Below are positions 39,845 through 63,428 of a DNA stretch of 64,000 nucleotides, in pieces; the stretch's first letter is position 1, and each line of letters opens with the position of its first letter. A program made the position numbers and the translations under genes. Source of the stretch: Deltaproteobacteria bacterium HGW-Deltaproteobacteria-6 (GTDB taxonomy: Bacteria > Desulfobacterota > Syntrophia > Syntrophales > Smithellaceae). The notes under the pieces are model-generated. The model did no database searches. It had not been told where the DNA came from and was given only the letters and a program-made list of their open reading frames with translations. Location: positions 180,300 through 244,299 of the forward strand of contig PHAT01000001.1 in assembly GCA_002840435.1 (NCBI GenBank). The letters are read 5' to 3'.

Positions 39845-39885
39845 AAATAAAAAAAGACCAGCCGGATCATGCCGTGCTGGTCTTT
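39845..39885 (-). terminator. Rho-independent terminator, minus strand
   Basis: AAAGACCAGC and GCTGGTCTTT arms; on the minus strand the hairpin is followed by a long T-rich tail. It ends transcripts from the small genes at higher coordinates and isolates the two-gene module. Confidence 0.88.
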
Positions 39886-40027
39886 GAAGTAATCGGTTGC
39901 TGCATGGGTACATTTCCTTTGAGGAACGTTTTTTTACTGCCATGCTGATTATGATGTTTAATGGTGGAAAACTTGAGAGTTTATACGCCTTTATTTTGCG
40001 AAGTTCAAGAAATAATATATTAAAAAA

Positions 40028-40327: not shown

Positions 40328-40390
40328 CTGTCACCTCCCATTTATGATTTTGATTGGTTCTTTAAAAACGAACAGCATGCACTATTTCGC

Positions 40391-40720
40391 CTATTCATAC
40401 AGACGAACGTCAAAACAATGAAGACTCGCAAGCTTCTGAATACCGCCATTTAACCATAATATGCATTGCTCTTTATCATGGCCGTCGTCATTAAGACCTG
40501 CAATTGAATAGAGGGGGCCTTGCATTTCAGTTATATAAATATTAGCTGCCGCAGGGTTTGGATGGTTGTATTTCGCATCCTCCGATTCTTCTGCCCAAGA
40601 TTCCAATGCATTTAGTATGTGATCTATCGTCATACATGTGACTACGCATTCATGATCATTCAACTTTGGAAGCATATTAATGAGTTTTTGAAGAGTTCTT
40701 AATGTGGATTGTGCAGTCAT
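40391..40720 (-). CDS. Small unknown protein
   Basis: A 109-aa mainly helical acidic protein with no recognised domain. The ATG at 40720 has AAGGAGGA upstream; an in-frame GTG at 40744 would read through that site. It lies 63 bases upstream of the 99-aa gene, same strand. Function unknown. Confidence 0.6.
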   Translation of the reverse strand: MTAQSTLRTLQKLINMLPKLNDHECVVTCMTIDHILNALESWAEESEDAKYNHPNPAAANIYITEMQGPLYSIAGLNDDGHDKEQCILWLNGGIQKLASLHCFDVRLYE

Positions 40721-40754
40721 ATAAATAAAATCCTCCTTTACCACGTTAGTTTTT

Positions 40755-41279
40755 TTACCCTGAATGCTCCTTATGCCTCATCCAATTATCGATATAAAAC
40801 TTTGCCAGGTCCCTGGACTTGATGATCAGAAGGTTTTCTGCGTTCTTTTGCTCTGCTGCCTTGGTAAAGTTGAATGATCCGGTGATAACGGTTTCCGCAT
40901 CGATAATCATAACCTTATTGTGGGCGATGGCGTGCGCGGAATCAATGGAAGTGGGGATGCCAGCGTTCTTTAGAAACATGACAGAGGAGTACCCTTCCCG
41001 GTCCTGGCTTTTATCCAGGATAACTTTGACGATGATGCCACGCTTATGAGCACGCACCAGGGCCTGGGCGATTGGTGCAGAGGTGAATGAGTATGCCTGG
41101 ACAAGGATCTCCGATCTGGCCGCATCCAATTCTTTAACGATTGCCGCTGTGCAGTTTCCGCCAGGTGAAAAACAAACATCAATATTGGATATGCTTTTTG
41201 CAGAAGTGGGTTCCGCGCTGGAGCAGATGGGGATGAATAGACAGATAATGACCGTAAGAAATATCAAGCGACGCTTCAT
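40755..41279 (-). CDS. Exported phospholipase D-family nuclease (Nuc-like)
   Basis: A 174-aa single-domain PLD-fold protein with an N-terminal signal peptide (about 1-22) and one HKD motif, AHNKVMIIDAETVITGSFNFTKAAE (His and Lys about 131-133, Asp about 138). Single-HKD proteins of this size act as dimers, typically as non-specific periplasmic or secreted endonucleases like Salmonella Nuc. Base composition is closer to the host than its neighbours. Its start directly follows the TM2 gene stop. Confidence 0.88.
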   Translation of the reverse strand: MKRRLIFLTVIICLFIPICSSAEPTSAKSISNIDVCFSPGGNCTAAIVKELDAARSEILVQAYSFTSAPIAQALVRAHKRGIIVKVILDKSQDREGYSSVMFLKNAGIPTSIDSAHAIAHNKVMIIDAETVITGSFNFTKAAEQKNAENLLIIKSRDLAKFYIDNWMRHKEHSG

Positions 41280-41603
41280 CTATAATTCCTTAGCCAAGTA
41301 TTTCTTCTGGAATACGTCATCGCTCATTTTTGCATATTGAAAGGCTTCAATTAATCCGCATATTGCGGGGATAAATGTCCAACAGAACAATAAATATAAA
41401 AGTCCGGACCCAGGTTTATCCAAATAAAATTTATGAACTCCAGCGCCGCCTAATAATAGAGACAATATGATTGCAGTACTTCTATTCTTTGATGATTTAC
41501 TCATGATGTCTTGTAATGGATGTCCACAATGTGGACATGATACGGCTTTTGAAGACACCTTGCTATTGCATGCTGGACAGTTGATTAAAGACATATTTTC
41601 CAT
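41280..41603 (-). CDS. Zinc-ribbon TM2-domain membrane protein
   Basis: A 107-aa protein: an N-terminal zinc ribbon (CPAC and CPHC, about 9-26), then the TM2 domain with two helices and the GGAGVHKFYLDKPGSGLLYLL signature (about 52-75). TM2 proteins are widespread with unknown roles. GAAAGG lies upstream of the ATG. It directly borders the prophage left end, so its promoter may have been disrupted or replaced by insertion. Confidence 0.85.
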   Translation of the reverse strand: MENMSLINCPACNSKVSSKAVSCPHCGHPLQDIMSKSSKNRSTAIILSLLLGGAGVHKFYLDKPGSGLLYLLFCWTFIPAICGLIEAFQYAKMSDDVFQKKYLAKEL

Positions 41604-41795: not shown

Positions 41796-42458
41796 TTATA
41801 TTGCCTTCTTTTCTGTAACAGCAGTGACGCTTCCGTCGTCTCCATGCGGGGCCTCATAAGTAGATTTCAGTCGATTATTTTCAGTGCGAAGTGCCCGGTT
41901 TTCTGATTGTAAAGATTCAAACTTGTTCTTCATGTCTGGAATATCTGCACAAAGCTTTTCCAAATTAGAAATTCTGTTTTGTACTCCTTCGTTTTCTTGT
42001 AATGATTCCTGTAGTTTTTTATTTAGCTCTTCCTTTGCCTTTCTATCATCGATAGATAAATCAAAAGCGTGTAAGTTTTCGATGATTGCTTTTTTATGCA
42101 CCTTGTCATCGAAAATTTTCTTTAGGGTGAAGCAAGCATCTAAAAGTTCTTTATCCCAGGGGGATATAATTGGTGGAAGTTCTTCACCTGATGGTTCTTT
42201 CAATGTTAGCTTTCTGACATTTTCTGGTTTCATAACACCATCGCCCGTCATAATCCAAACAAAATCATATCCGAATAAATGCTCAATAGTATAAGCAATT
42301 GGGATTGATATTTTAGTGACACCGTTTTCAATTGCAGATAGCGCAGGCCTAGAAATACCTAATTTTTTGGCAAATTCTGCCTGTGTTATATTTTCGTTAG
42401 CTCTGATTTGAGCCACTCTGTAGCCAGTTGTTGCATACTTATTCATAATAGATGTCAT
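41796..42458 (-). CDS. Prophage repressor (XRE-type HTH, c-like)
   Basis: A 220-aa protein with an N-terminal helix-turn-helix (about 12-60; ITQAEFAKKLGISRPALSAIENG), an intermediate segment and a C-terminal coiled coil (about 120-200) for oligomerisation. It is divergent from the early genes and should bind the palindrome in the early promoter to keep lysogeny. The ATG at 42458 is chosen; the in-frame extension to 42524 would cross the operator and overlap the ner-like start. Confidence 0.82.
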   Translation of the reverse strand: MTSIMNKYATTGYRVAQIRANENITQAEFAKKLGISRPALSAIENGVTKISIPIAYTIEHLFGYDFVWIMTGDGVMKPENVRKLTLKEPSGEELPPIISPWDKELLDACFTLKKIFDDKVHKKAIIENLHAFDLSIDDRKAKEELNKKLQESLQENEGVQNRISNLEKLCADIPDMKNKFESLQSENRALRTENNRLKSTYEAPHGDDGSVTAVTEKKAI

Positions 42459-42473
42459 AAACAAACATTCCTC

Positions 42474-42503
42474 TTGACAATATGTCAGTATCTGACATAT
42501 AAA
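42474..42503 (+). promoter_or_regulatory. Early promoter with embedded operator
   Basis: TTGACA at 42474-42479 and TATAAA at 42498-42503, 18 bases apart. The spacer holds a perfect palindrome ATGTCAG-TAT-CTGACAT (42482-42498), the likely repressor operator. The predicted start of transcription coincides with the ATG of the next gene, implying a leaderless message. Confidence 0.78.
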
Positions 42504-42509
42504 TGACCC

Positions 42510-42767
42510 ATGAACGCAAATCAAATAACTAAAATCAACAAAAAAGGGGCGCGCTACATCAGCGCGCTACTGCTTATCCACGGCATCCGACAAGATGAAA
42601 TCGCCGATAAGGTCGGCGTTTCGCGTCCTCTCGTTTCCCAGGTAGTGACCAGAAAGCGTGGCGGAACAAAAAAAAATGGGCCGAAAATCCGTTTAGTCCG
42701 CCAGGCCGTGGCCGAAGCCCTGGGCATGCCGGTGGAAGAACTTTGGCCGGACACCAAGGCCGCATAA
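42510..42767 (+). CDS. Ner-like small DNA-binding protein
   Basis: An 85-aa basic helix-turn-helix protein with HGIRQDEIADKVGVSRPLVSQVV (recognition helix about 37-46) and a C-terminal VEELWPD, as in Ner/XRE proteins that follow the repressor in Mu-like phages and shut off early transcription. No ribosome site is present; the ATG lies about 7 bases after the promoter -10, so it is probably leaderless. Confidence 0.8.
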   Translation: MNANQITKINKKGARYISALLLIHGIRQDEIADKVGVSRPLVSQVVTRKRGGTKKNGPKIRLVRQAVAEALGMPVEELWPDTKAA

Positions 42768-45345: not shown

Positions 45346-47151
45346 ATGGCAGTCTCTGAAAGCATACTGAATCACGTTGCAGCGACATTGCGCGGACTGA
45401 ATGCATCCGACGCAACACGGAAAACAAGGGAACTGGCGGCGCATTACGGTGTCACAACGGCCACCATCAATCGGTATGCGGCGGCGCGGGGGATTCGATT
45501 TCGGAAGGAGCGCAAAACAAAAGGTCAGTCCGGAGCGACCCGAGACATTCTGCTGAATGCCTCCACGCTAATGCTGACATCCAGGCGCATATCCAATGAA
45601 ATTCCCCTGCCCGCTTGCGACGCTAAAATGATTCTGGAGGATTCAGGGATTGAGACCGGCGGCGTGTCGACAAGCTGGTTTTTGTCACGGCTTCGGCAGG
45701 AGCAGATCAGCGCCAAGGATATGCTCCGGCCATCGCCGCATGTTCGCCTGCTTTCCAAGCATCCAAATCACGTCTGGCAATTCGACGTGACCAACTGCCT
45801 CCAATACCGTCTTGATACAAAAAAAGGTCTCGATGAGCGCGACACCGAAATGACTATGTACAAAAATAAAATCGTCAAAACCGCAAAACTAATCAAAATG
45901 GAATTGCTCCGATATGCCGTTGTGGACCATTGCAGCGGAGCATTCTATTTTCATTATTTTTACGCATCGGGCGAACGCGCGGCGGACGGATCAGAGTTTC
46001 TCTTCCGCGCCATGCGCCCGAAAGACGAAATGATTAAAAAAACGTGGAACGGCCAGTCCGGCGAAAAGCTCGGCAAGTTCCGTTTTCATGGCGTACCCTT
46101 TATGCTTGTATCCGACAAAGGATCAATCCTGACGGCGAAGGCGAACCAGGCATTGATGGACGCGCTGCGTGTTGATGTTCAGCTTCACATGCCCGGCAAC
46201 CCACGCGCAAAAGGCGCGATTGAAGGTCTGATGCACTACATCAATCGGTTTGAAGCACGTCTAAAATTTCAGCGGCCAGCCGATCTGGAGGAACTGAATA
46301 GATGGGCGCTGGATTGGTGCATCTATGCCAACGGCGCAATCAAGATGCGCAACGTCGCGCCGCGCTCGGTTTTATGGTCCTACATTACAGCCGAGCAACT
46401 GCGCCTGTGTCCGGAAGAGTCGCTTTATCGCCTGCTCATTAAAGAACCAACCATCACACGATTAGCAAAAGGCGACCGGACGATCAGCGTGGATGGCCGA
46501 TTCTACCAGGTGCCCGATTCCCAAGCGGCAGGCCAGACCGTCAGTGTTGTCCGGCATCCCTATGAATACCCGAATGTCGAAGTCCATTTTAACGGCAACA
46601 TCTGGCTGTGCCAGCCGATTGACGTGGATGTCTATGGTCGCATGACCAACGGCGTGGAATACGGCACTTATAAGGGGATCAAGCACACCGAGACGCAGCA
46701 GGCCAAAACAGAAATGGAAAAGAAGTCCCTTGAAATGGGCCTTACCTGGAAGGGCACAGGCGACAAGCGCATGGCCGTCGCGCCTCCGGTCGGCTTTGTA
46801 TCGCCGCTCACCGTATTCGGCCACCAGGCGGATAAGGTCGGAAATGTCGAATTCATCGAACGCAAAGGCACGCCGCTGGAGATCAAGACAGCGAACGCGC
46901 CTATTAATCCGGTTATCGAATCGAGTGCATCGGAAATACCGCGCCCACTGGCAGCGCGGCGCATTTCCTTCACTGAATTTCTGAAACAGTTACGCGCCGA
47001 GATTGGCATCATCACACCGGCGATGAACGCCGATCTGCGCGCCAACTATGAGAATGGCATTGAGGTCAAAAAAGCAGAGGAGGTGATCCAGCAGATTCAG
47101 GACGGCACATGGCAGCAAGATGTTGGCTGCATCATGCAGTCAACAGGTTAA
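45346..47151 (+). CDS. MuA-like DDE transposase
   Basis: A 601-aa phage transposase that binds the phage ends and carries out strand transfer. An N-terminal helix-turn-helix (about 28-55) leads to the catalytic core with HVWQFDVTNC (D147), LVSDKGS (D257) and AIEGLMHYINRFE (E293), a canonical DD35E triad. The beta-barrel and C-terminal MuB-interacting region follow. Slightly shorter than Mu A (663 aa). The ATG has AAAGGA upstream. Confidence 0.93.
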   Translation: MAVSESILNHVAATLRGLNASDATRKTRELAAHYGVTTATINRYAAARGIRFRKERKTKGQSGATRDILLNASTLMLTSRRISNEIPLPACDAKMILEDSGIETGGVSTSWFLSRLRQEQISAKDMLRPSPHVRLLSKHPNHVWQFDVTNCLQYRLDTKKGLDERDTEMTMYKNKIVKTAKLIKMELLRYAVVDHCSGAFYFHYFYASGERAADGSEFLFRAMRPKDEMIKKTWNGQSGEKLGKFRFHGVPFMLVSDKGSILTAKANQALMDALRVDVQLHMPGNPRAKGAIEGLMHYINRFEARLKFQRPADLEELNRWALDWCIYANGAIKMRNVAPRSVLWSYITAEQLRLCPEESLYRLLIKEPTITRLAKGDRTISVDGRFYQVPDSQAAGQTVSVVRHPYEYPNVEVHFNGNIWLCQPIDVDVYGRMTNGVEYGTYKGIKHTETQQAKTEMEKKSLEMGLTWKGTGDKRMAVAPPVGFVSPLTVFGHQADKVGNVEFIERKGTPLEIKTANAPINPVIESSASEIPRPLAARRISFTEFLKQLRAEIGIITPAMNADLRANYENGIEVKKAEEVIQQIQDGTWQQDVGCIMQSTG

Positions 47152-47172
47152 TTAAAACGGAGGTGAAGCGAA

Positions 47173-48423
47173 GTGGGAAGACCGAAGAGTGACGAAGTAC
47201 AACCCTACAACATGGCATTTAAACCAATCGTATTAAAAGAATTGTGCGTGGATACCGGCATCAGTCAGACGCGGATCGGCAAGGCTACCGGGCTTAGCCG
47301 GGTATCGATCAATCTTGCGCTGAACCGTGGATATATGCCTGTCGGCACGCCAAACTTCAAGGCATTGGTTGAAGCCGAGATCGCAAAAGTCAGCAGAGCC
47401 GCGCAGTGGCTCATGGAGCGGCAAATGAAAGTCGAGGACATTTGGAAGCCGCTCGGCAAGGATCTGCGGCACGTATCACCAGCAGCAGATAATCAGAAGA
47501 TGTGGGCAACAAGAAAAACACCGGCAATGGTACCGGGCAACCCCGAACAACTAATCAATAACATGGAGGCAGAGATGATCAATCCCGAAGCAATGAAGCA
47601 TTTTAAAATTTTCAGGAATCCCTTTATCGATGACATTCAAAAGGACAGCGACATTTACATGAGCGAAGAACACCGCTACATCTACGAGGCAATGACCGAC
47701 GCGGCAAAGCATGGCGGCTTTCTGGCGGTGATCGGCGAAGTCGGCAGCGGCAAGAGCGTTATGCGCCGGAAGGTCGTTGAACAGTTGAAAAAGGATGGTG
47801 ACACCATCGTCATTTTTCCACAGATGATCGACAAAACCCGCGTCAACGCGGCCAGCATTTGCGATGCCATCATCATGGACCTTTCCGAGGCCCGGCCCAG
47901 CATGAAGCTGGAAGCAAAAACGAGACAGGTGCACAAACTCCTTCTGGAGCGTGCAAAACAGGGCTTCCGCTCCGTCCTGATTATCGAAGAGGCACACGAC
48001 CTGCACACCAATACATTGAAGTACCTGAAGAGATTCTACGAACTGGAAGACGGTTTCCGCAAACTGCTGGGCATTATCCTGATCGGCCAAACTGAACTGA
48101 AAAACCTCTTTAACGAGCAGGCGCACATTGAAATGCGCGAGGTGATCAGGCGCATCCAGACAGCGGAAATAAAGGGGCTGAACGGCAACACAAGAGATTA
48201 TCTGACCATGAAGCTCAAACGGATCAACGTCAAAGTAGATGACATTTTCGAGGAGGGCGCGTTCAAGGCAATGAGCCTTCGGCTCACCACGAAAGACGCC
48301 CATAGCAAAAGCATCAGCCACGCCTATCCATTGATGATCAACAACTACGCCGCGCGGGCCATGAATCTGGCCTATGAGATGGGCGAAAAGAAAGTGACCG
48401 AAGCCGTCGTGATGGCGCTATAG
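47173..48423 (+). CDS. MuB-like target-DNA-binding AAA+ ATPase
   Basis: A 416-aa protein. An N-terminal HTH (about 25-55) is followed by an AAA ATPase with Walker A GEVGSGKS (188-195) and Walker B SVLIIEEAHD (about 267-276), in the MuB/ExeA group. MuB selects target DNA and activates MuA. It is longer than Mu B (312 aa), with an extended linker after the HTH. The start is a GTG at 47173 with GGAGGTGA upstream. Confidence 0.9.
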   Translation: MGRPKSDEVQPYNMAFKPIVLKELCVDTGISQTRIGKATGLSRVSINLALNRGYMPVGTPNFKALVEAEIAKVSRAAQWLMERQMKVEDIWKPLGKDLRHVSPAADNQKMWATRKTPAMVPGNPEQLINNMEAEMINPEAMKHFKIFRNPFIDDIQKDSDIYMSEEHRYIYEAMTDAAKHGGFLAVIGEVGSGKSVMRRKVVEQLKKDGDTIVIFPQMIDKTRVNAASICDAIIMDLSEARPSMKLEAKTRQVHKLLLERAKQGFRSVLIIEEAHDLHTNTLKYLKRFYELEDGFRKLLGIILIGQTELKNLFNEQAHIEMREVIRRIQTAEIKGLNGNTRDYLTMKLKRINVKVDDIFEEGAFKAMSLRLTTKDAHSKSISHAYPLMINNYAARAMNLAYEMGEKKVTEAVVMAL

Positions 48424-51723: not shown

Positions 51724-52200
51724 ATGGCATCGAGGGACATCAAAGACTGCACACCATCATTGCAGGCAAAAATCAAAGCATTCATGATTGCGACGCTCAG
51801 CGCGGGCATACCCGTCATGATCACCTGCACCGCGCGAACGGTTAAAGAACAATGCGCTCTCTACGCCCAGGGACGTGAGCCGATATTTGACGTTAACGAA
51901 TTGCGCGCAATGTCTGGTCTGCCAAGGATCACCGTCGAACAGAACAAAAACAAAGTCACCTGGACACTTCAATCAAAGCACATCATCGATCTGGACGACG
52001 GCAATGCCGACAACGATAAATCACGCGCTTTCGATATTGCGATCGCACCCGGCGGCAAACCCGTATGGGACGTCAAAGTTGATGTCAACCAGGATCACAT
52101 TTCAGATTACGAACAAGCCGGAAAAATCGGCGAAGCATGCGGGCTGCGCTGGGGCGGAAGATTCAAAAACCCGGACATGCCGCACTTCGAGGACGTATAA
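51724..52200 (+). CDS. Endolysin, M15-type peptidase
   Basis: A 158-aa cell-wall peptidase (L-Ala-D-Glu or VanY-like). Zinc-ligand motifs are SKH in LQSKHIIDL, SRAFDIA and MPHFED. No signal peptide, so a holin is needed (candidate at 53112). AGGAGG precedes the ATG. It begins the late lysis cassette. Confidence 0.87.
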   Translation: MASRDIKDCTPSLQAKIKAFMIATLSAGIPVMITCTARTVKEQCALYAQGREPIFDVNELRAMSGLPRITVEQNKNKVTWTLQSKHIIDLDDGNADNDKSRAFDIAIAPGGKPVWDVKVDVNQDHISDYEQAGKIGEACGLRWGGRFKNPDMPHFEDV

Positions 52201-52281: not shown

Positions 52282-52578
52282 ATGAAAATGAGAAAAACAC
52301 TTTTGATTATCTTGATTATCCTTGCCGCCGCGCCGGTAATTGCGGGCGATTGCGATCAGCGGTTTAGCATTTACAGGGCTGAAGTCGATGGCCACACTGT
52401 CTATCACGTCAGGGAATATGACGATTATTTTAAAGTTGGCTTTACATGCTTCGAGACAAGCGACATCAGGCAAGCAAAAACATATCGCGCCCAAAGCGTT
52501 GCATCCTGCCAGGCGGCAAAGGACGCTGAGCAATACCAGCGGAAATTAAACAATGCAAAATGGGAATTGGTGGAATGA
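52282..52578 (+). CDS. Small secreted protein of unknown function
   Basis: A 98-aa protein with a signal peptide (about 1-21, ending APVIAG) and two or three Cys in the mature chain. AAGGA precedes the ATG. The place in the lysis region suggests an envelope role such as a spanin-like or exclusion factor, without direct support. Confidence 0.6.
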   Translation: MKMRKTLLIILIILAAAPVIAGDCDQRFSIYRAEVDGHTVYHVREYDDYFKVGFTCFETSDIRQAKTYRAQSVASCQAAKDAEQYQRKLNNAKWELVE

Positions 52579-52601
52579 CCAGAGCGGTTTAAGGAGAAAC
52601 A

Positions 52602-53102
52602 ATGGACCTCACAAGATACAATGCCATCAAGGATCAGATGAAAACAGGCGATCTGCTGCAATGGCGTTCTCATTCCGTTGTTGGCGCGCTGATCCGCTGG
52701 AAGACTGATTCCAACGTCAATCACTCCTCTCTCGTGATCCGGCTGGCTGAATATGAAGGTCTGGAGCGCCGCCGTTATACCACCGAAGCCCTGGAGCATG
52801 GAACGGTCCTCAATTTTTTATCCCGCAGATTAGAACAGTTTGACGGTGAAGTCTGGTGGTACCCGTTAGCCGCCGCTTGGAACAATAATCGGCAGGATAT
52901 TGGTGAGAGGGCTCTTTCACTGGTGGGCATCCCTTACGATTATCAATCCATTTTTCATCAACTATTCGGGAAAGTGTCGGCGGACGCCAGACGCCTGTTC
53001 TGTTCGGAGTACTGCTATCTGGCTTACGGATTCACAGGAAAAGCTCCGGCTCCGGCTGACATGCCAGCGCTTGGGATTTTTGAACAACCGATCAAATTGT
53101 AG
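52602..53102 (+). CDS. YiiX/NlpC-P60-like cysteine hydrolase
   Basis: A 166-aa permuted papain-fold protein: TGDLLQWRSHSVVGALIRWKTDSNVNHSSLVI carries the conserved His, and LFCSEYCYLAYGF the nucleophilic Cys (order typical for the YiiX/YebB group). Likely a peptidoglycan or lipid amidase used in lysis or infection. AAGGAG precedes the ATG. Confidence 0.8.
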   Translation: MDLTRYNAIKDQMKTGDLLQWRSHSVVGALIRWKTDSNVNHSSLVIRLAEYEGLERRRYTTEALEHGTVLNFLSRRLEQFDGEVWWYPLAAAWNNNRQDIGERALSLVGIPYDYQSIFHQLFGKVSADARRLFCSEYCYLAYGFTGKAPAPADMPALGIFEQPIKL

Positions 53103-53111
53103 GAGGACACG

Positions 53112-53351
53112 ATGAAAAGCGATTTTCTAAAATTGAACATCATTGACCTGGCACGTGGTGCCGTCGTGGCAACAGGGGCGGCAATCCTGGCGGCGATAGT
53201 TCCCATTCTGGAAACCGGCAGCATACCTGGTGTCAGCACATTAAAAGGCATCGCAGTAACCGGCCTGGCAGCCGGAGGCGCTTATCTGCTGAAAAACCTT
53301 TTTACCAACTCAAAAGACCAGCTTGTAAGGGGTGAAACAGTTAATGGCTGA
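53112..53351 (+). CDS. Holin-like small membrane protein
   Basis: A 79-aa protein with two hydrophobic segments (about 15-35 and 47-63) and a polar tail, the class II holin layout. AGGAGG precedes the ATG. Close to the endolysin gene, so holin is the most likely role. Confidence 0.62.
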   Translation: MKSDFLKLNIIDLARGAVVATGAAILAAIVPILETGSIPGVSTLKGIAVTGLAAGGAYLLKNLFTNSKDQLVRGETVNG

Positions 53352-53559
53352 TGAAATAGACCGCACACAGGAAGTCAGCGAAGTTTACGAGTCCGCGATG
53401 CTTAAACAGCGGATCAAAAACGCTACCGTGCTGCCTGAATTCCGCCACACATGCGAAGACTGCGGGCGCGTTATCCCGGCCCGCCGCCGCAAAGCTAATC
53501 CCAGCGCAACGCGCTGTATTGAATGTCAAATAATATTTGAAAGCGGAGGGAACACATGA
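53344..53559 (+). CDS. TraR/DksA-type zinc-finger protein
   Basis: A 71-aa protein with CEDCGRVIPARRR and CIECQ forming the C4 zinc finger of TraR/DksA proteins, and a helical N-terminus. Phage TraR binds RNA polymerase in the secondary channel and mimics ppGpp-DksA. AAGGGGTGA lies upstream and it overlaps the holin-like gene. Confidence 0.88.
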   Translation: MADEIDRTQEVSEVYESAMLKQRIKNATVLPEFRHTCEDCGRVIPARRRKANPSATRCIECQIIFESGGNT

Positions 53560-53891
53560 CCCCTGAGCAGATCGCGGCACTATCGGCAATTGCATCGATC
53601 ATCGGACAAATCGGCACCTGGCCTATTGCTTCACTATTGGCCGTTATCGTACTGGGACCGTGGGGAATCATGTTTTTCCTCGCACGGTCAAACGATAAGC
53701 GGCTAGAGGCGGCTCTCAAAATGTACGAGTCCAATGTCAAGCTGGTTGTCAATTACGAAAAGATCGCCACTGAACAGGTGGATACCATACGACTGGCTAC
53801 GGCGGCGACAACAGAGCTAACCACCTGGTTGAAAACCCGGACACCTTGTCACGCCCTTCTAGCCGCCAGATTGAGGAGCAATAATTCATGA
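53556..53891 (+). CDS. Single-helix membrane protein, late region
   Basis: A 111-aa protein with one hydrophobic helix (about 22-43) and a long amphipathic helix after it, which might be an inner-membrane spanin-like part. The ATG overlaps the previous stop (ATGA). Not recognised. Confidence 0.6.
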   Translation: MTPEQIAALSAIASIIGQIGTWPIASLLAVIVLGPWGIMFFLARSNDKRLEAALKMYESNVKLVVNYEKIATEQVDTIRLATAATTELTTWLKTRTPCHALLAARLRSNNS

Positions 53892-54133
53892 GCCTTCAAA
53901 ACGAAATGCGCCGCGTCCAATTAACGAACCTGGAACATACGGCCAAACGCCTGCGGGCAGAGATCAATGACCTCTGCAAAACGATCTGCATCAACCTCGA
54001 CTGCGGCATGACCATGCCCGAGGATCTGCCCGTGGAATCAGTAGACAGCCAGTGGGATGAACTGAAAAGCAAATGGGCGGATCTGACGGTGAGCATCGCG
54101 AAAATCAGGATGCTGAAAGAGGAGCTGAAGTAA
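53888..54133 (+). CDS. Small coiled-coil prophage protein
   Basis: An 81-aa protein made of two charged helices with a short Cys-containing middle (CKTICINLDCG). It overlaps the preceding gene by 4 bases and abuts the following one. Similar size and place to Mu gp25-26, but no clear match. Confidence 0.58.
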   Translation: MSLQNEMRRVQLTNLEHTAKRLRAEINDLCKTICINLDCGMTMPEDLPVESVDSQWDELKSKWADLTVSIAKIRMLKEELK

Positions 54134-54397
54134 ATGAGTAAAACCATACAAGGGACAAGACTCAACGACAACTGCTTTCCTAAGGAGCGTGGAGAATATT
54201 CTAAACAGAGCGATGGGACCTGGCTGCTTTGCCTTCCGACAGGAATACATGGACAAATCAACAATAAGACGTGGAAGATTGTAGAGCACGACAACAATAC
54301 AATAACTGTAACGCCTTCAATCCTTACCACCACAACTGGACATCCGGAACTTACCTGGCATGGCTACCTTGAGGCCGGAATTTGGAGAGAATGCTGA
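54134..54397 (+). CDS. DUF6527-like phage protein
   Basis: An 87-aa beta-rich protein with DGTWLLCLPTGIHGQINNKTW and LTWHGYLEAGIWREC, the pattern of the DUF6527 phage family of unknown role. Its start directly follows the previous stop; the next start overlaps its stop codon (TGATG). Confidence 0.65.
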   Translation: MSKTIQGTRLNDNCFPKERGEYSKQSDGTWLLCLPTGIHGQINNKTWKIVEHDNNTITVTPSILTTTTGHPELTWHGYLEAGIWREC

Positions 54398-54894
54398 TGG
54401 CGGAAAAAGGCGCGCGTACACAACTGGAGCCGGTAGCCCGGCAGATGTTTATCGACGGTCAGTCGCTCACCGCGATTGAAGCCGCGCTGGATGTATCGCG
54501 TCAGACGCTGGCCGCCTGGAAAGGCAGCACGAAAAAGCCGGACGAAGAGTTTGACGAATGGGACAAGGCCAGGGCTCGTAAAGCATCCTTCGGCCTGCGC
54601 ATGGAAGCACTCCTGGAGCGCGAATTGACCTTCGCCGAAGAACGTGAGCCCGGCGCGATTGACGGCGGATCACTCGACAATCTCAGCAAACTGGGCGCAC
54701 TGGTTGTTAAATTCAAAACCATTGAAGGCCTGGGCGCTGGCTACGATAAAGCAAAGGTCTTTCTGGAAGATGTCCAGTGGATCATCGCCTGGCTCCGGGA
54801 AAATGATCCGGAAGGATTGAAAGTGCTGGCAGCAGACTTTGACGCAATGACCATGCAGTTTAAAACGGAGCAGATGAATGGCAGTAATGCGTAA
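54397..54894 (+). CDS. Terminase small subunit-like (DUF1804, Mu gp27-like)
   Basis: A 165-aa protein with an N-terminal HTH (FIDGQSLTAIEAALDVSRQTLAAWK, about 19-43) and a helical C-terminal part, as in DUF1804 phage proteins encoded just before the large terminase. It likely recognises phage DNA for packaging. The ATG at 54397 follows GGAG by 9 bases. Confidence 0.82.
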   Translation: MAEKGARTQLEPVARQMFIDGQSLTAIEAALDVSRQTLAAWKGSTKKPDEEFDEWDKARARKASFGLRMEALLERELTFAEEREPGAIDGGSLDNLSKLGALVVKFKTIEGLGAGYDKAKVFLEDVQWIIAWLRENDPEGLKVLAADFDAMTMQFKTEQMNGSNA

Positions 54895-56446
54895 AAAACC
54901 GAATCTGACCGAAGGGCAATTTGACCAGCAGGTCGCTGAACTCAAAAAGTGGATACGTGATTCCGTATCGCCGTTTGAGAATGATACGCCTGCCAAGCAG
55001 CGCGCCCGAATAGAACGTGGCCGGACCGATTTGCTCTATTTCTTCAGCACGTATCTGCCGCATTACTTCAGCGTCGCCTTTGGAGATTTCCACGGCGAAT
55101 GGCAGGAGATCACCGAGCTCAAGGATCAGCTTGCCCTGGTCGGTGCGCCGCGCGAGCATGCGAAGTCCACCTTCTTTACCCTGGGTAATCCGGTCCACAA
55201 GATTGTCTATCAGCTAACACGGTTTTGCTGGCCATGCTCAGACACGCATGAACAGGCGACGGCGTTCAGCACGCAGATCAAGCTGGAGCTGGAAGAAAAT
55301 CCGCGCATCATTCACGACTTCGGCAAGCTCAAAACAAAAAACTGGAGCGATGACGAATTTGAAACTACGACCGGCGTCAAGGTGCTGGCCAGAGGGCGCG
55401 GCGATAAAGTGCGCGGCATCCGCTACCGGCAGTACCGTCCGGACATGGCCACCTTCGACGATATGGAAAACGACGAGACCGTCGAGAACCCGCGCACCAC
55501 AAAGAAGATTATCAACTGGATACGCGGTGCGGTTTTGGGATCTCTGGGCAAAGGCTATTCAGCCATTATGGTCGGCAACCTCTTCCATCCGCTCAGTGCC
55601 ATCTCCAAGCTGATCGCCGAGGAAGATGAGGACGGACTGCCCCGCTATGTCTCCAAAGTCTACGACGCGATCGTCGACGAAGAGAATCAGATTTCGTTGT
55701 GGCCCGCATTGTGGCCATGGGAACGGCTCATGCAAAAGAAGCATGATGTCGGCACCTATACCTTCAATAAGGAAATGCGTAACAAGGTGGCCACGGAAGA
55801 TTCGCCTTTCCCGGAAGAGACGGTTTCTCACTATGAACGCATTGAGCTGATCCGCGTTCCTCTGATCTTCGCCACTGGCGTTGATCCGGCTGCAACGGCA
55901 ACATCTAAAAGCGACTTCCGCAGTGTGGTCACCTGGGGATTAGAACGGGTACAGATGGAATTTTTCTGCATGCACGCCTGGATCAAGCGCCGGTCCATCG
56001 GTGAATTCTTCGCCGCCGCTTATGCGCAAAACGATCTGTATCCCGGTGTTGTTGTGGTGGAAGAAAACATGCTCAAGGATTTTCTCCACGAGGCAATTCA
56101 GAACTACGCCAAAGAAGTAGGCCGTTATCTGCCCTGGTCACCGATCACCCACACAACCAGCAAGATCGACGCGCGCATCATCGGCACCTGCGAATATTTG
56201 TGGGAGCACAAGAAGATGCGCTTTGAAAAAGGACACAGCGACCAGAAGATCCTGGAGGAGCAGTTCGTCTATATTCTGAACCCGTCTGTCCATGACGACG
56301 GACCGGATGCCTCAGAGATGGCCATCAGCCACCTGCAAAAAGGGAACGGTATGTCGGTTGAATACACGTCCATCTCCAGGAGACGGTTTGCCGGGCTGCC
56401 GGGTGATCAAAAAACAGGCGTCCTGATGCAAAGGGGAGCCTATTGA
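54878..56446 (+). CDS. Terminase large subunit (Mu gp28-like)
   Basis: A 522-aa packaging motor. The ATPase domain has a Walker A-like GAPREHAKST (about 89-98) and Walker B ATFDDMEND; the C-terminal nuclease begins ATGVDPAATATSKSDFRSVVTWG with the conserved Asp. GGAG lies 7 bases upstream. It overlaps the small subunit gene by 17 bases and its stop overlaps the next start (TGATG). Confidence 0.92.
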   Translation: MAVMRKKPNLTEGQFDQQVAELKKWIRDSVSPFENDTPAKQRARIERGRTDLLYFFSTYLPHYFSVAFGDFHGEWQEITELKDQLALVGAPREHAKSTFFTLGNPVHKIVYQLTRFCWPCSDTHEQATAFSTQIKLELEENPRIIHDFGKLKTKNWSDDEFETTTGVKVLARGRGDKVRGIRYRQYRPDMATFDDMENDETVENPRTTKKIINWIRGAVLGSLGKGYSAIMVGNLFHPLSAISKLIAEEDEDGLPRYVSKVYDAIVDEENQISLWPALWPWERLMQKKHDVGTYTFNKEMRNKVATEDSPFPEETVSHYERIELIRVPLIFATGVDPAATATSKSDFRSVVTWGLERVQMEFFCMHAWIKRRSIGEFFAAAYAQNDLYPGVVVVEENMLKDFLHEAIQNYAKEVGRYLPWSPITHTTSKIDARIIGTCEYLWEHKKMRFEKGHSDQKILEEQFVYILNPSVHDDGPDASEMAISHLQKGNGMSVEYTSISRRRFAGLPGDQKTGVLMQRGAY

Positions 56447-56592
56447 TGGCGACGCGTTTAAATGCCCGACATTTGTTTGATGGGCAAAATGGCTACATAC
56501 GGGGGGTAGTTTTCTTGACACTGTTTATAAACATGTTTTTGCGCGAAGCACGGGCAAAATTATGCGTGGGACGGGAGGGGATATCGCTATGA
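56446..56592 (+). CDS. 48-aa ORF linking terminase and portal genes
   Basis: Reads MATRLNARHLFDGQNGYIRG, then a hydrophobic run GVVFLTLFINMFL and a basic tail. Its ATG overlaps the terminase stop (TGATG) and its TGA overlaps the portal ATG (ATGA), so ribosomes could pass through all three. No homologue known. A TTGACA and the palindrome TGTTTATAAACA (56522-56533) also lie in it, so the stretch could alternatively be regulatory. Confidence 0.5.
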   Translation: MATRLNARHLFDGQNGYIRGVVFLTLFINMFLREARAKLCVGREGISL

Positions 56593-58193
56593 CGGTCCTG
56601 TTTGATCAATTTGGCAGAGAAGTTCAGGTCCAAAAGCAACCCGAAACGCGTGAAATTGCCGTGACGACAATCCGGGATCGGTGGTCCAACTATCCCTCCT
56701 CCGGACTCACGCCGCAATCACTGGCCACAATATTCAAAGAAGCCGACGCGGGAGACGTTCATCGGCAGGCAGAGCTGTTTGAAGAGATGGAAGAAAAAGA
56801 CACCCATCTATTTTCGGAAATGCAGACGCGTAAAAATGCCGTCCACGGTCTGGATTATGATCTGGCTCCCTATTCAGAGAGCGCCGAAGATAAGAAGATT
56901 TGCGAATTTGTTGCCGATTGCCTCTTCAATCTGAATAGCTTTGATGACGCTCTTCTGGATCTCCTGGATGCTATCGGTAAGGGATATTCTCTTTGCGAAA
57001 TCAAATGGGACACAACCGGCGGCAAGGCCATTATCGGCGATCTGTCGTGGATTCACGCGAAAAAGGCAGTCTTTTACGAGCGTGGCGCGTCGAGCATGTG
57101 GGCCAAAAGTCTGGAGCTTCCGCGAATACTGACCGAGGCCGAGCCGTTCAACGGTGAAATCATGCCGCCGTTTAAGCTGGTTTACCACCGGTACAAGGCG
57201 CGTTCCGGGTACGACACACGCGCCGGTGTGCTGCGGGTATGCGCCTGGATGTATCTCTTCAAAAATTACAGCATCAAAGACTGGGTGGCTTTTTCCGAGG
57301 TGTTTGGCATGCCGCTGCGCCTTGGTAAATATGATTCCAATGCCAGTAAGGGCGATAAGGATGCTCTTGTTGCCGCGATTCAGTCCCTGGGTTCCGATGC
57401 CGCCGGGATCATCTCCAAGAACACGGAGATCGAGTTTGTGGAGTCCATCAAGAATTCAGGCACGAATAACATTTATGAGTCACTGGCTAATTTCTGCGAC
57501 AAGCAGATGTCCAAAGCAATTCTGGGGCAGACGGCCACCACGGAAGGTACGCCCGGCAAGCTGGGCAATGAAGACGCCCAGGACAAAGTCCGGCATGACC
57601 TGATCAAGGCCGATACGGAATCATTGGCTAAGACCGTCCGCTTTCAGATCGTCCGTCCCCTGGTCGGATATAATTTTGGATGGGACAAGCCGCTGCCGTG
57701 GTTCAAGATGCTCTATGAGAAACCGGAAGACCTGGCCAACCTGATGACCGTCTACAAGGGTGCAACGGAAATCGGTCAGCCGATATCCGCCGAGCATGTG
57801 TCAGAACGGTTCAAAATTCCCATGCCTAAAAAGGGCGAAACTGTTTTGCAACCCCGACAGGCTCAAGCCGGGGCAACCAAAATCAAAGCCACTTTGAAAA
57901 AGATCGTTGCCAAGGACATAGCGCCAACTCAGTCGGATAATGACGCGGCGGATCAGATTACATCCCGCCTGGCGCAAGATGCCATGCCGATAACCGACAC
58001 GGACTTTATCGCGCAAATTCGCTACCTGGTCGAAGATCTGGATGTGCAGGACCTTGCGGATCTGCGTGATCGGCTCATCGATCTTTGGGGAACAATGAAT
58101 CCAGCCGACCTGGGCGCACTCGTTGCGCGGGCAATGGCCGTCGCGGAAATGGCCGGAATGGCTGATGTCCAAGACGAAGCGGGGACAAAATGA
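56589..58193 (+). CDS. Portal protein (DUF935, Mu gp29-like)
   Basis: A 534-aa portal subunit, forming the dodecameric entry for DNA in the head. Typical DUF935 segments: LFEEMEEKDTHLFSEMQTRKNAV, GYSLCEIKWD, KDWVAFSEVFGMPLRLGKY and SKAILGQTATTEGTPGKLG. GGAGGGG lies upstream of the ATG at 56589. It overlaps the following MuF gene by 4 bases. Confidence 0.93.
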   Translation: MTVLFDQFGREVQVQKQPETREIAVTTIRDRWSNYPSSGLTPQSLATIFKEADAGDVHRQAELFEEMEEKDTHLFSEMQTRKNAVHGLDYDLAPYSESAEDKKICEFVADCLFNLNSFDDALLDLLDAIGKGYSLCEIKWDTTGGKAIIGDLSWIHAKKAVFYERGASSMWAKSLELPRILTEAEPFNGEIMPPFKLVYHRYKARSGYDTRAGVLRVCAWMYLFKNYSIKDWVAFSEVFGMPLRLGKYDSNASKGDKDALVAAIQSLGSDAAGIISKNTEIEFVESIKNSGTNNIYESLANFCDKQMSKAILGQTATTEGTPGKLGNEDAQDKVRHDLIKADTESLAKTVRFQIVRPLVGYNFGWDKPLPWFKMLYEKPEDLANLMTVYKGATEIGQPISAEHVSERFKIPMPKKGETVLQPRQAQAGATKIKATLKKIVAKDIAPTQSDNDAADQITSRLAQDAMPITDTDFIAQIRYLVEDLDVQDLADLRDRLIDLWGTMNPADLGALVARAMAVAEMAGMADVQDEAGTK

Positions 58194-59359
58194 TCATCGA
58201 TGCCGTTTTCAAATTGCCTTTCGAGGAGCAGGAAGCATTCTTCCGGGAGAAGCAGAACATCCCGACGCAAAAGTGGAATGATCTCTGGAAAGAACAGCAT
58301 GCAAAAGGGTTCATGGTAGCCGGTGCTTACCGGGATGATCTGCTGGTGGATTTCCGCAGCGCCGTGGACAAGGCCATTACCCAGGGAACGACGCTTGCCG
58401 AATTCCGCAAGGACTTTGACCGTATCGTATCTCAGTATGGCTGGAGCTACAACGGCGGGCGCAATTGGCGCAGCGAACTTATCTACTCCACCAACATTCG
58501 AACATCCTATGCTGCCGGGCGCTGGGCTCAGCTCACGGACCCTGAGCAATTAGAGGCGATGCCCTATCTGACTTACAGACACGGCGATAGCCGGGTGCCG
58601 AGGCTTCACCATTTAGCCTGGGACGGGATAACGCTTCCGGCTGATGATCCCTGGTGGAAGACGCACTATGCGCCCAACGGATGGGGCTGCAAATGCCGGG
58701 TTATCGGTTCAACGCGCAAGGAATACGCGGCGGCAAAGAAGGAGGGAAAAGGAGAAGCTCCCTCTTCACCCATTGATCCAAAAACCGGAGAGCCGGTGGG
58801 GATTGATAAGGGCTGGGGCTACAACGTGGGCGAAGCGGCATTCGGAAAAAGCTGGGTTCAGGAATCAGGCAAGTTCGAAGAGCTTGGGCCATGGCGCAAA
58901 GATCAATATCCATTCCTGCCGGATAAACTGACGGGCGAAGTGCCACCGGTTGCTTTAGGGAAGGAACTGAAAACAGAAGCGGCGTTGCGTACTGCGGTGC
59001 CGGAGGGCATCTACCGTGATCCGTTAGGCGATTACGTAAATGTCACGAGAGCGCTGGCTGACCATATTGTTCAAGATCCCAATCGTTGGGATGGAAGGGA
59101 AAAATTTTTTCCGCTGATTCCGGACATCATTGAGAACGCCCAGGAAGTCTGGGTGGGCTTCGTAAAGTACGTTGACAGTGGCCGGGTTGTACTCCGGAAG
59201 CGATATGTGAAGGCTTATGAAATCCAAAAAAGCCGCGTTGTGGGAGTCATGGCGGACACGGTTAAAGGTCAAATGGTGGCGTTTGATATGTACAGGAGCC
59301 ATGATTTATCGGGTGGCAGACTAAGATCTGGGCGGTTGCTCTATCCGATAGGTAAGTAA
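58190..59359 (+). CDS. MuF-like head morphogenesis protein (Mu gp30-like)
   Basis: A 389-aa minor head protein. The SPP1-gp7/MuF domain (about 60-190) includes IYSTNIRTSYAAGRWAQ and WWKTHYAPNGWGCKCRV with the conserved CxC. The C-terminal third (about 265-385) has the form of a phage-borne barrel-like or nuclease domain seen in some MuF proteins (YRDPLGDYVNVTRALADHI), possibly a DUF-type toxin or structural module. Overlaps the portal stop. Confidence 0.87.
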   Translation: MIIDAVFKLPFEEQEAFFREKQNIPTQKWNDLWKEQHAKGFMVAGAYRDDLLVDFRSAVDKAITQGTTLAEFRKDFDRIVSQYGWSYNGGRNWRSELIYSTNIRTSYAAGRWAQLTDPEQLEAMPYLTYRHGDSRVPRLHHLAWDGITLPADDPWWKTHYAPNGWGCKCRVIGSTRKEYAAAKKEGKGEAPSSPIDPKTGEPVGIDKGWGYNVGEAAFGKSWVQESGKFEELGPWRKDQYPFLPDKLTGEVPPVALGKELKTEAALRTAVPEGIYRDPLGDYVNVTRALADHIVQDPNRWDGREKFFPLIPDIIENAQEVWVGFVKYVDSGRVVLRKRYVKAYEIQKSRVVGVMADTVKGQMVAFDMYRSHDLSGGRLRSGRLLYPIGK

Positions 59360-59481
59360 CGAGGACATCATGTCGCCGCACCAACATGCGCCGCTACGCC
59401 TGCCTTTAGGGTGTGCAGTCCTCGGTCAGGCCAGTTAGTAAAAACATAGCAGTATTTTGTGAAATTGCAAGGGGAAAGTAA

Positions 59482-60024
59482 ATGCCTGAAATCATCATCA
59501 AAGTGGACGGTGCTGACGCCGTCCGACAGAAGCTGCTGGCGATATCCGGCAGGACGGCAAACTTATCCCCGATCATGAAGGCTATCGGAGAGCGCGTGGT
59601 CGAACAGACCAAGCGGCGTTTTGAGACAGGCGGGCCAGCTCCGGACGGCAAAGCGTGGGCAAAGCCGAAAACACCAAATCCGAAACGCATTCGGACCCTG
59701 ACGGTGAGCGGCCAACTGCGGGACAGCATCCGTTTTCAGATGATCAGCAATAACGAGGTCGCCATCGGGACAAATAAGGTTTACGGCGCAATTCATCAGC
59801 TTGGCGGCGTGATCACACAAGGCGCTCGTTCAGAATTGTTTCAACGCAACCGGTATGTGCGGGGCCCAAACAAAGGATCATTTAAAAAGGGGACCACAGC
59901 AGGCAGAGGCTTTACGTTCAAAGACAGGACAATCAACATGCCTGCCCGTCCGTTTCTGGGGCTGAGCCAGGCGAACAGCAATGAAATTATCGGCATCATC
60001 AATGACTATATCGCAGGGAGGTAA
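59482..60024 (+). CDS. Phage virion morphogenesis protein (Mu gpG-like)
   Basis: A 180-aa protein of the gpG/tail-completion group: IGERVVEQTKRRFETGGPAPDGKAWA and the conserved VYGAIHQLGGVI and MPARPFLGLSQAN near the C-terminus. AAGGGGAAAG precedes the ATG. The 120 bases before it hold only a 22-codon ORF at 59370 with GAGGA upstream, which is not called. Confidence 0.87.
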   Translation: MPEIIIKVDGADAVRQKLLAISGRTANLSPIMKAIGERVVEQTKRRFETGGPAPDGKAWAKPKTPNPKRIRTLTVSGQLRDSIRFQMISNNEVAIGTNKVYGAIHQLGGVITQGARSELFQRNRYVRGPNKGSFKKGTTAGRGFTFKDRTINMPARPFLGLSQANSNEIIGIINDYIAGR

Positions 60025-60027
60025 CGC

Positions 60028-61041
60028 ATGAAAAATTTTATTTTGGCAGTCCTTAAGGAAATGACCGGCGCGCCCGCAGAATTTCAGGTACTGCCTGCCG
60101 GAAAAATAGAAGTGCACGGCGATGAGCCCGCGTATCTGGATGAGGCCGCCGCAATTAAAATTATCGCGGCTTATAAGGCGCGTGGAAACGACATGGTTAT
60201 TGATTATGAGCATCAGTCTTTGGCCGATGTCCAATCACCGGCAGCGGGGTGGATCAAAGACATTGTCTGGAAGGGTGCGGAAGGATTGTGGGCAGTTGTG
60301 GAATGGACGGCAAAAGCAGCCGAGTATTTGAAGAACAGGGAATACCGGTATTTTTCGCCGGTCATGCTGGTGGGCGCGGTGGATCGGAAAGTTGCGCTAT
60401 TGGTAAATGTGGCGCTGACCAACAATCCCGCGATGAATAATTTACGGCCAATTGTGGCCAAAGCTACAGACTTTATCGAAAACCAAAAGAAGGAGGACAC
60501 AATGTTAGAAAAGTTGAAAAAGCTGTTGGGCCTGGCCGCAGATGCCGGGGAAGATAAAATCGTGGAGGGCGTTACGCTCCTGGTCAATAAATGCGCTGAA
60601 CTGACAGGAAAAGTAACATCCGTCATAGCCTGCAAGGAAGTTCTGGACGCTCTCGGGGCAAAACCCGAATCCGGAAAAGATGAGGTCGTTCAGATTGTCG
60701 CCTCTCTCAAAGCGCCTGCGGACGTCGCTAAAACGCTGAGTCTAGAAGTTGCGGCGCTCAAAACAAAGATCGCCGGTATGGAGCAGGCGGATCTGGTTGC
60801 ACTGGCGCTCAAAGAAGGAAAGACCAGCCCGGAAGAATTGGATAAATGGGGTCGGGATCTGGCGCTCAAAAATCCGGAATCTTTCAAACAGATTGTTCTT
60901 TCCCGTCCGGCGGGCAGCGTTATCCCCGTAACGGATATCCTCGTGGCAAAGGAGCAGACTGTGGTTGCCGATGATGTGCAGCGCTCCGTCAATAAGATGA
61001 TGGGCATCGATGATCAGACGTTTACTAAATACAACAAATAG
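60028..61041 (+). CDS. Mu I-like head maturation protease/scaffold
   Basis: A 337-aa protein. The N-terminal part (about 1-155) is the protease domain of Mu gpI: MVIDYEHQSL and a YRYFSPVML segment. The C-terminal half is helical scaffold. An in-frame start with its own ribosome site at 60502 would give the scaffold alone, as Mu gene Z. It starts 3 bases after the gpG stop. Confidence 0.87.
   Translation: MKNFILAVLKEMTGAPAEFQVLPAGKIEVHGDEPAYLDEAAAIKIIAAYKARGNDMVIDYEHQSLADVQSPAAGWIKDIVWKGAEGLWAVVEWTAKAAEYLKNREYRYFSPVMLVGAVDRKVALLVNVALTNNPAMNNLRPIVAKATDFIENQKKEDTMLEKLKKLLGLAADAGEDKIVEGVTLLVNKCAELTGKVTSVIACKEVLDALGAKPESGKDEVVQIVASLKAPADVAKTLSLEVAALKTKIAGMEQADLVALALKEGKTSPEELDKWGRDLALKNPESFKQIVLSRPAGSVIPVTDILVAKEQTVVADDVQRSVNKMMGIDDQTFTKYNK
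60502..61041 (+). CDS. Mu Z-like scaffold from internal start
   Basis: Within the I-like gene, AAGGAGG followed by ACACA and ATG opens an in-frame product of 179 aa (MLEKLKKLLGLAADAG...). Mu makes its scaffold Z this way from gene I. The strong internal ribosome site supports the same here. Confidence 0.72.
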   Translation: MLEKLKKLLGLAADAGEDKIVEGVTLLVNKCAELTGKVTSVIACKEVLDALGAKPESGKDEVVQIVASLKAPADVAKTLSLEVAALKTKIAGMEQADLVALALKEGKTSPEELDKWGRDLALKNPESFKQIVLSRPAGSVIPVTDILVAKEQTVVADDVQRSVNKMMGIDDQTFTKYNK

Positions 61042-61079
61042 CCGCGAGGCAGCTAAACAATCATAGAAGGAGGACACCA

Positions 61080-61409
61080 ATGAAAAGAACCATTGAAAGC
61101 ATATTTGGAAGCACGAGGACTTTCTTTCTCCTCGCAATTATTTGCATCGTGGCGCTGGGCGCGAAGATGTTGAGTCTTGATGATGCATCAACCGTGGGCC
61201 TTTTCGGCATGACACTCGCTGCCGACAAAGCCCTGGAATACACAGAGGGCGTAGAACTGGACTTCCCGGTGATCAATGCGGACATCGTTTATGCGGGCTC
61301 ATTCGTCTGCGTTAATGCCGCAGGTTATGCATTGCCCGGCTCTGATATCCGGCATGATTATGCAATCTACGCCCAGTATTGCGTAATCCGCAATTACCGG
61401 ACCGATTAA
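61080..61409 (+). pseudogene. Truncated capsid cement/decoration-like protein fused to host antisense sequence
   Basis: The 109-codon frame starts after AAGGAGG. An N-terminal hydrophobic segment (about 14-30) is unusual; then MTLAADKALEYTEGVELDF and VYAGSFVCVNAAGYALPGSD match the start of DUF2190-like phage cement proteins. After codon 89 or so (about 61346) the sequence becomes the antisense of the acetyltransferase gene, so the last 20 residues are junk. The rest of the gene and all downstream phage genes are missing. Confidence 0.78.
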
Positions 61410-61850
61410 TTTTTCAGAAGGCGGATAAAGATCATTAATCAATTTGCTTCCAAGATATACCCGAACAAAATTCCCGACTTTAGAAAATTGGCCTATTTCT
61501 ATCATTGATCCTGTCTTAACATGGTTGCCGATCACCGCCTCTCCCATAATAATAGCTGCGGCGCCGGCCTGAAAGCCATCGCCGATCTGCATGTTTTCTC
61601 GAATGATGGCATGATTTCCTGTCACAAGGTTATCCCCGATCAGGCTGCCCTGATAAATGATCGAATGACTTCGTATCCTGGCATTTTTACCAATTTTCAA
61701 AGGTCCTTTTTCTCTGCCGTTGGAATATCCAATTTCACAATAGGATTCAATAATGCTGTTGTCTCCAATTTCTACATGGTCATAAACAGTTACAAAATTT
61801 CCAAATGAAACATTATTGCCGATTTTTGCTTTGCTGGATATAATATTCAT
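61299..61850 (-). pseudogene. Hexapeptide-repeat acetyltransferase, 3' end replaced by prophage sequence
   Basis: A WbbJ/NeuD-like left-handed beta-helix acyltransferase: many (I/V)GxxxxI repeats such as IGDNSIIESYCEIGYSNGREKGPLKIGKNARI and VIGNHVKTGSMIEIGQFS. The ATG at 61850 follows GGAG by 8 bases. The host frame is intact to IADYAILGVDCIIMPDI (about 61347), then runs into prophage DNA and stops at 61299. About 20-40 C-terminal residues of a normal enzyme are lost. It belongs with the polysaccharide-type gene cpsB nearby. Confidence 0.78.
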
Positions 61851-61986
61851 TCTGATCTGCTCCATTTCTTAAACGCGAAGGTATTTATCAAACTTGACTT
61901 TAGAAAATAATCAAACCGCCCTTTCTTTTAAAGGGCATAAGATCGTCAGTGGATACAACCACGCATGAGACGACTGGTTTAAATGG

Positions 61987-62633: not shown

Positions 62634-63428
62634 TCAATTCCTTTTGAAGAAAGAAGCGATTGAAAAATCAAACCGTTTTTTCTTTTTTAAGGGCACGGGA
62701 TCATCGGTGAACACTTCCTTGCCGTCAATAATATTTTGCGGCAGATCATAAACCATTTTGCGGGCGGCTTCTTCGCCGATAATATTTTTAACCGCTTCAT
62801 AACCTTCGAAAAGTTTAGGCGATCTCAAATGAAGGCCATGCGAATCGGTAACAAGTATGTGGACGAGACGATGTTCTAAAAGCATCAGTGAAAAATCACG
62901 AATTTCAGGCGTGAATTTTTCCAGAACGCTGGCTGCCGTCAGCTGCGTTAGAACGCCCATTTCCACCCATTTCAGAAGGCGTTCCGGGTTTTCGTGCAAC
63001 AGGGGATGCCGTTCAACGTGGCTGATGATCGGCTTGATGTTTTTTAAAGCGAGCTTCCAGAGAAAATCTTCCAGATGATCGGGAATGGATTCATCAGGCA
63101 ATTCAATGAGGGCGTAGATTCCGGTGTCGTTAATCGTCATCAGCTCACCGGATGCGATTTTTTCGGGAAGCGTGATGTCCAGCCTGAGCTCCGCGCCGGG
63201 ATAAATATTCAGGGCGATTTCATGATCGGCAAGTTGTTTTCTGAAATCTTCTACTGCCGTGATGATTTGCGCTCTCTGATTATTGTATCTTCCAGGAATC
63301 CAGTGAGGCGTGCAGGCAATGCCGGTAATGCCGTCCGCCAGGGCCATTCTGGCCATATCAATGCTCTTGGACCAGGTGTCGGCTCCGTCGTCAAGTCCGG
63401 GAAGAATATGGTTGTGCAGGTCGATCAT
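62634..63428 (-). CDS. Tyrosine-protein phosphatase, CpsB/CapC/YwqE type (PHP fold)
   Basis: A 264-aa manganese-dependent phosphatase that reverses tyrosine phosphorylation of capsule/EPS kinases. PHP motifs: MIDLHNHILPGLDDGADTWSKS, CTPHW, PGAELR, HVERHP and TDSHGLH. It suggests a nearby polysaccharide export locus outside the window. The neighbouring acetyltransferase fits a polysaccharide cluster. Confidence 0.9.
   Translation of the reverse strand: MIDLHNHILPGLDDGADTWSKSIDMARMALADGITGIACTPHWIPGRYNNQRAQIITAVEDFRKQLADHEIALNIYPGAELRLDITLPEKIASGELMTINDTGIYALIELPDESIPDHLEDFLWKLALKNIKPIISHVERHPLLHENPERLLKWVEMGVLTQLTAASVLEKFTPEIRDFSLMLLEHRLVHILVTDSHGLHLRSPKLFEGYEAVKNIIGEEAARKMVYDLPQNIIDGKEVFTDDPVPLKKKKRFDFSIASFFKRN

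Follow-up and report, generated by a model that had tools for sequence, protein, structure and literature searches.

Prophages that lose their mobility and then their genes are described as grounded or cryptic, and the excerpted account of Rac, DLP12 and Qin of E. coli gives a mechanism based on the attL and attR sites of lambdoid phages (PMC6379469). For Mu, the relevant part of another source states that transposition synapses both Mu ends, and that the Mu prophage still formed a folded domain after its R end had been deleted (PMC3820752).

Here we describe a grounded Mu-like prophage in Deltaproteobacteria bacterium HGW-Deltaproteobacteria-6, an element of this ordinary, known kind and a case of routine prophage decay. 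Like Rac, DLP12 and Qin, as portrayed in that part of PMC6379469, it has lost something needed for mobility, has undergone gene deletion after or together with this loss, and has kept its early genes. It differs from them in what it lacks, an R end of a transposable phage instead of a lambdoid attachment site, and in that the probable deletion enters a host gene. Very probably, the prophage lost its right arm, its R end and the 3' end of a neighbouring acyltransferase gene by a single deletion, and the resulting junction is genuine.

The prophage lies in the window, the whole 64-kb stretch analysed (G000:C1:180300-244299), which is part of a 917-kb contig in a genome of 4.09 Mb and 53 contigs. 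The window copy keeps 23,092 bp (23.1 kb) of phage DNA, and its features are collected in Table 1.

Table 1. Features of the prophage remnant and its flanks, in window positions.
Feature	Position	Strand	Basis or remark
Host tRNA-Met (CAT)	38018-38094	+	In congeners, behind agmatinase and pvlArgDC genes (gene names by reading)
L terminus of Mu-like prophage, begins TGTGAAGGGGTGTGATAACTAAGTA	38256-38370	+	83% to the L080/G149 terminus
AT-rich left-end cargo	38386-41603	-	Inside the L end; GC 35-40%
PLD/NucT-like nuclease (left-end cargo)	40755-41279	-	
TM2 plus zinc-ribbon protein (left-end cargo)	41280-41603	-	
Helix-turn-helix repressor-like gene	41796-42524	-	PF12844, PF01381
MuA-like transposase	45346-47151	+	phrog_310; up to 79% to relatives
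MuB-like transposition ATPase	47173-48423	+	phrog_296
Endolysin	51724-52200	+	phrog_465
Terminase large subunit	54878-56446	+	phrog_38
Portal protein, Mu type	56562-58193	+	PF06074, phrog_113
Mu F-like minor head protein, C-terminal PBECR2 nuclease-like domain	58190-59359	+	PF04233, PF18810
Virion morphogenesis / tail completion protein	59482-60024	+	PF05069, phrog_26
Mu I-like head maturation protease	60028-61041	+	PF10123
Truncated virion structural gene, 5' part of ~89 codons, remainder missing	61080-61347	+	phrog_1731 (virion structural protein), residues 44-89; 13 relatives
Breakpoint	61347-61350		Phage up to 61347, host from 61349 or 61350; 61348 assigned to neither side
QdtC-like hexapeptide acyltransferase without 3' end	61350-61865	-	Residues 1-172 native; hexapeptide repeats and relatives
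CpsB/CapC family gene, right host flank	62634-63428	-	PF19567

A Mu-like prophage next to tRNA-Met

The retained genes place the element with Mu and Mu-like phages. MuA and MuB are adjacent (45346-48423), the Mu-type head genes for portal, F, tail completion and I protease follow in order, and the left terminus begins with 5'-TG at 38256, in common with relatives. Unlike Mu, the window copy shows neither a right arm nor an R end, its transposase scores only below the cut-off, against IS481 and IS21 models in NCBIfam, and AT-rich cargo separates the L end from the repressor. The MuA, MuB, terminase and portal genes align nearly end to end with one relative (L071), as do the F, tail-completion and protease genes with another (G084). 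We further note two apparently near-identical Mu-like phages, L069 and L077, from metagenomes 3300037286 and 3300038679, as judged from their almost identical matches to the window.

We place the left end of the prophage at 38256 (TGTGAAGGGGTGTGATA), 161 bp past the tRNA-Met gene. In a scan for termini, the contig of the relative G149 stops exactly at the terminal TG, TGTGGAGGGGTGTGATAACTAAGTA, and the alignment of L077 with the window begins at 38253, about the same start. The AT-rich genes at 38386-41603 were also considered as a separate tRNA island, a reading rejected on finding the L end outside them. Three of the cargo ORFs (38386-38922, 38901-39806 and 40391-40744) have no Pfam or NCBIfam match.

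Two reading frames meeting at the breakpoint

At the other edge of the phage DNA, two open reading frames, both confirmed in the window, overlap across the junction (61080-61409 on the plus strand and 61299-61865 on the minus strand). The original prediction read the plus-strand frame as phage sequence to about ALPGSD, and the comparison bears this out. Homology reaches the Asp of this motif in all 13 phage records that gave a match, and the continuation differs: the relatives go on as D-T (11/13) or D-A (2/13) and never as D-I (0/13), which is what the window has. The 13 records include G151 and G153, near copies of one another, and leave out L014 (G104), which gave no match to the broken virion gene.

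The minus-strand frame carries hexapeptide repeats in a family search, and its best solved relative is QdtC (PDB 3fs8, 273 aa). QdtC and the relatives in L005, L006 and L020 (242, 255 and 258 aa) extend beyond the window breakpoint, and the latter three have 59, 67 and 80 residues past the site that corresponds to residue 173. In the window, the native part of the protein comprises residues 1-172; unrelated residues then lead to a stop after residue 188. All five aligned relatives (L005, L006, L007, L020 and 3fs8) have Gly after the Pro, where the window has Asp173. Host sequence had been proposed to run to about IIMPDI, and the comparison supports it through residue 172. Since phage and acyltransferase relatives diverge from the window at these points, phage sequence is taken to reach 61347, and the host side to begin at 61349 or 61350.

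The hexamer GATATC at the junction, earlier taken as common to both sides, does not retain that role. It is its own reverse complement, and both frames therefore read it as Asp-Ile, which accounts for the apparent sharing. None of the 13 phage relatives has GATATC, ten have GATAC, and the acyltransferase relatives uniformly encode Gly at the position in question. The hexamer as evidence for microhomology is thus not supported by these alignments. An EcoRV-type ligation chimera, an idea based on the recognition site, was rejected, since this site is absent from the phage relatives and the 64-kb window has as many as 27 copies of GATATC. Some short microhomology may still have existed at the join, the sequences of the parents not having been found; neither an intact version of the prophage nor the empty site was recovered.

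We also searched for the lost part of the acyltransferase. The C-terminal parts of the three relatives have no convincing match in the window and the next 17.7 kb, and the best hit (E 0.04) lies inside the hexapeptide repeats of the same gene. An arrangement in which the prophage had inserted within the acyltransferase gene, leaving the gene's 3' end at its left, was rejected, given this result and a left flank made of tRNA-Met intergenic DNA. The right host flank also holds two copies of a repeat with the core GTCCCGAAAAATCGGGAC, at 62562 and 63910.

The missing right arm

A relative that we read as complete from end to end, G149 (IMGVR_UViG_3300038336_000082; 40,065 bp), indicates what would have lain beyond the breakpoint. 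One of its termini has TGTGGAGGGGTGTGATA, which is matched in inverted orientation by TGTGGCGGGGCGTGATA at the opposite terminus. The two prophages are alike in MuA (75% identical) and in the L terminus (83% identical), and G149 has a homologue of the broken virion gene that is 47% identical over residues 33-89. They differ in completeness: G149 retains the two termini and an entire right arm, with ~19.5 kb between the equivalent of the breakpoint and the R end. Of the ten proteins scanned in this arm, eight gave hits to structural families (major head, major tail, head-tail adaptor, sheath, two baseplate hub, baseplate wedge and tail fibre); a ninth falls in a family without known function, and the tenth has no match. 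A D12-class adenine methyltransferase gene adjoins the R terminus of G149 (L091, 76-891). By eye, the ends of two further loci, L092 and L093, look alike.

The original prediction that capsid, tail and right-end genes are absent agrees with searches of the prophage's own genome. Mu gpT (PF10124) has no match anywhere in its 4.09 Mb and 53 contigs. A two-protein query from L016, made up of a major head protein and another late protein that is tail-tube-like by reading, likewise has no match there, nor in the IMG/VR copy of the window prophage. In control searches of three other genomes with related prophages, the head part matched all three and the second part one; the head part therefore carries the weight of this negative result. 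A terminus pattern derived from both ends of G149 has a single exact match in the genome, the L end, and its 12 further sites with two mismatches compare with 10 hits for a control pattern. A second phage end was thus not found in the own genome with this G149-type pattern, which would miss a differing R end. Loss of a cis site or enzyme of mobility, by which a prophage is counted as grounded, is accordingly seen here in an R end and a major head gene that were not found and in the absence of ~19.5 kb relative to G149.

These searches bear on two other explanations. In the first, an inversion or translocation moved the right half of the phage and the 3' end of the acyltransferase gene elsewhere. 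Such an event would produce an identical join locally, the genome has yet to be closed, and the search for the 3' end covered the window and 17.7 kb beyond it; failure to find the major head gene or a second phage end in 4.09 Mb nonetheless makes a rearrangement of this kind very unlikely. The right half of the prophage may also lie on an unbinned contig. In the second, the acyltransferase belongs to the cargo of a phage that merely has a different right arm. Cargo at the left end shows that this phage tolerates cargo, but the acyltransferase gene is cut, an R-end motif of the relative's type was not found, a CpsB/CapC gene follows, and the neighbours of related acyltransferase genes look to be of sugar-nucleotide or polysaccharide type, as judged by reading the translations. 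We regard this second explanation as practically untenable.

Support for the junction in an IMG/VR record and in congeners

The alternative of a chimeric contig, in which the assembler or a chimeric DNA fragment fused contigs of phage and of unrelated host origin, was raised from the start and is weakened by two lines of evidence. The first is the IMG/VR record 3300038334_000138, which is identical to window 52345-61850 and crosses the junction unbroken, with no N. At window ~41638 the same record is interrupted by a gap of 10 N, which is closed in the window; because its scaffold gap differs in this way, it is something other than a mere copy of that contig. The record and the window genome may nevertheless derive from common reads. 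Furthermore, an exact 33-base pattern from the left of the junction occurs among viral contigs only in this record, which also carries the junction. A 10-base break between compared pieces of the IMG/VR copy falls at ~46690, where the window is continuous.

The second line is the linkage of the two flanks, which lie close together in three of six congeners. In G012, tRNA-Met is ~0.58 kb from a gene that reads as S1/P1 nuclease-like, whose homologue here is at extended coordinate 74616-75332. In G017, matches to 69188-73345 and 75462-76907 follow shortly after the left-flank copy, and G008 shares 69189-71104 on the same 37-kb contig as the left flank. Since the flanks are linked in these three, their association holds for at least some members of the genus. 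No right flank was seen near the left one in the other three (G006, G009 and G013; stretches of 15-17.5 kb). The intervening 61350-69187 (61.35-69.19 kb) has no DNA match in nine loci compared and looks accessory on this comparison. Reconstruction of the empty site from congeners failed, as homology stops at 38145 in the 30 loci compared; the proposed comparison with relatives thus yielded linked flanks and no empty site. The interval from tRNA-Met to the nuclease-like gene is ~0.58 kb in G012 and 36.5 kb here, and from this variation the site past tRNA-Met seems to tolerate insertions.

We therefore consider a chimeric contig unlikely, against the ungapped IMG/VR record, the close spacing of the flanks in G012 and G017 (a few kb at most) and their shared contig in G008, and the sole viral contig with the exact phage sequence also carrying the junction. 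In its favour are the division of the genome into 53 contigs with 4.16% estimated contamination, the finding of neither parent sequence intact, a join without clear visible microhomology, and the half of the congener stretches (3/6) that do not show the flanks together.

Origin of the remnant and its consequences

The single deletion remains our preferred explanation. Downstream of tRNA-Met lies a Mu-like transposable phage whose left end faces the tRNA, and an illegitimate deletion would later have joined codon 89 of the virion gene to codon 172 or 173 of the acyltransferase gene, in opposite orientation. As judged from G149, the event would have taken the entire right arm including the R end, together with some 59-80 acyltransferase codons (from the three relatives) and any host DNA in between, so that the right flank of the insertion, which would bear one side of the 5-bp target duplication of Mu-like phages, would have been removed with the deleted DNA. 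The full length of the phage genes compared end to end suggests that the deletion was recent. Of the microhomology-mediated deletion first proposed, the loss of the right half and of the acetyltransferase 3' end thus stands as the best account, and the microhomology at GATATC is not supported.

Since the L and R ends are paired during Mu transposition, the remnant is not expected to transpose, and the failure to find a second phage end makes it a reasonable inference that it is locked in place. It should also make no particles. The repressor, MuA and MuB genes, which it was correctly said to encode still, could be expressed from their places in Table 1. Some prophage organisation could persist as well, given that the Mu domain survived deletion of the R end in the experiments covered by the excerpt of PMC3820752.

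A bolder reading starts from the L end and the terminase gene, both of which the remnant keeps while lacking an R end, a combination that makes helper packaging conceivable. Mu-type packaging would start at the L end. In the relevant part of one source, Mu-like packaging begins close to one end of the phage and terminates, by a headful mechanism, in the host DNA at the opposite side (PMC5557969). A related helper phage, on infection, could then package from the L end of the remnant, which would become a fixed launch site for transfer of the host region; we hold this to be exceedingly doubtful. If true, packaging would run through the 23 kb remnant into some 15-17 kb of right-hand host DNA, an estimate based on the 40-kb relative.

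The locus offers a base-level view of how one transposable prophage would have been immobilised, since the end that survives is identified and a complete relative can be set beside it. A further point is that bases apparently shared where two strands' reading frames are fused can be the effect of a palindrome. A virus that has very probably lost its right half, along with the end of a sugar-modifying gene beside it, would thus represent an ordinary route of decay for viruses of this kind.
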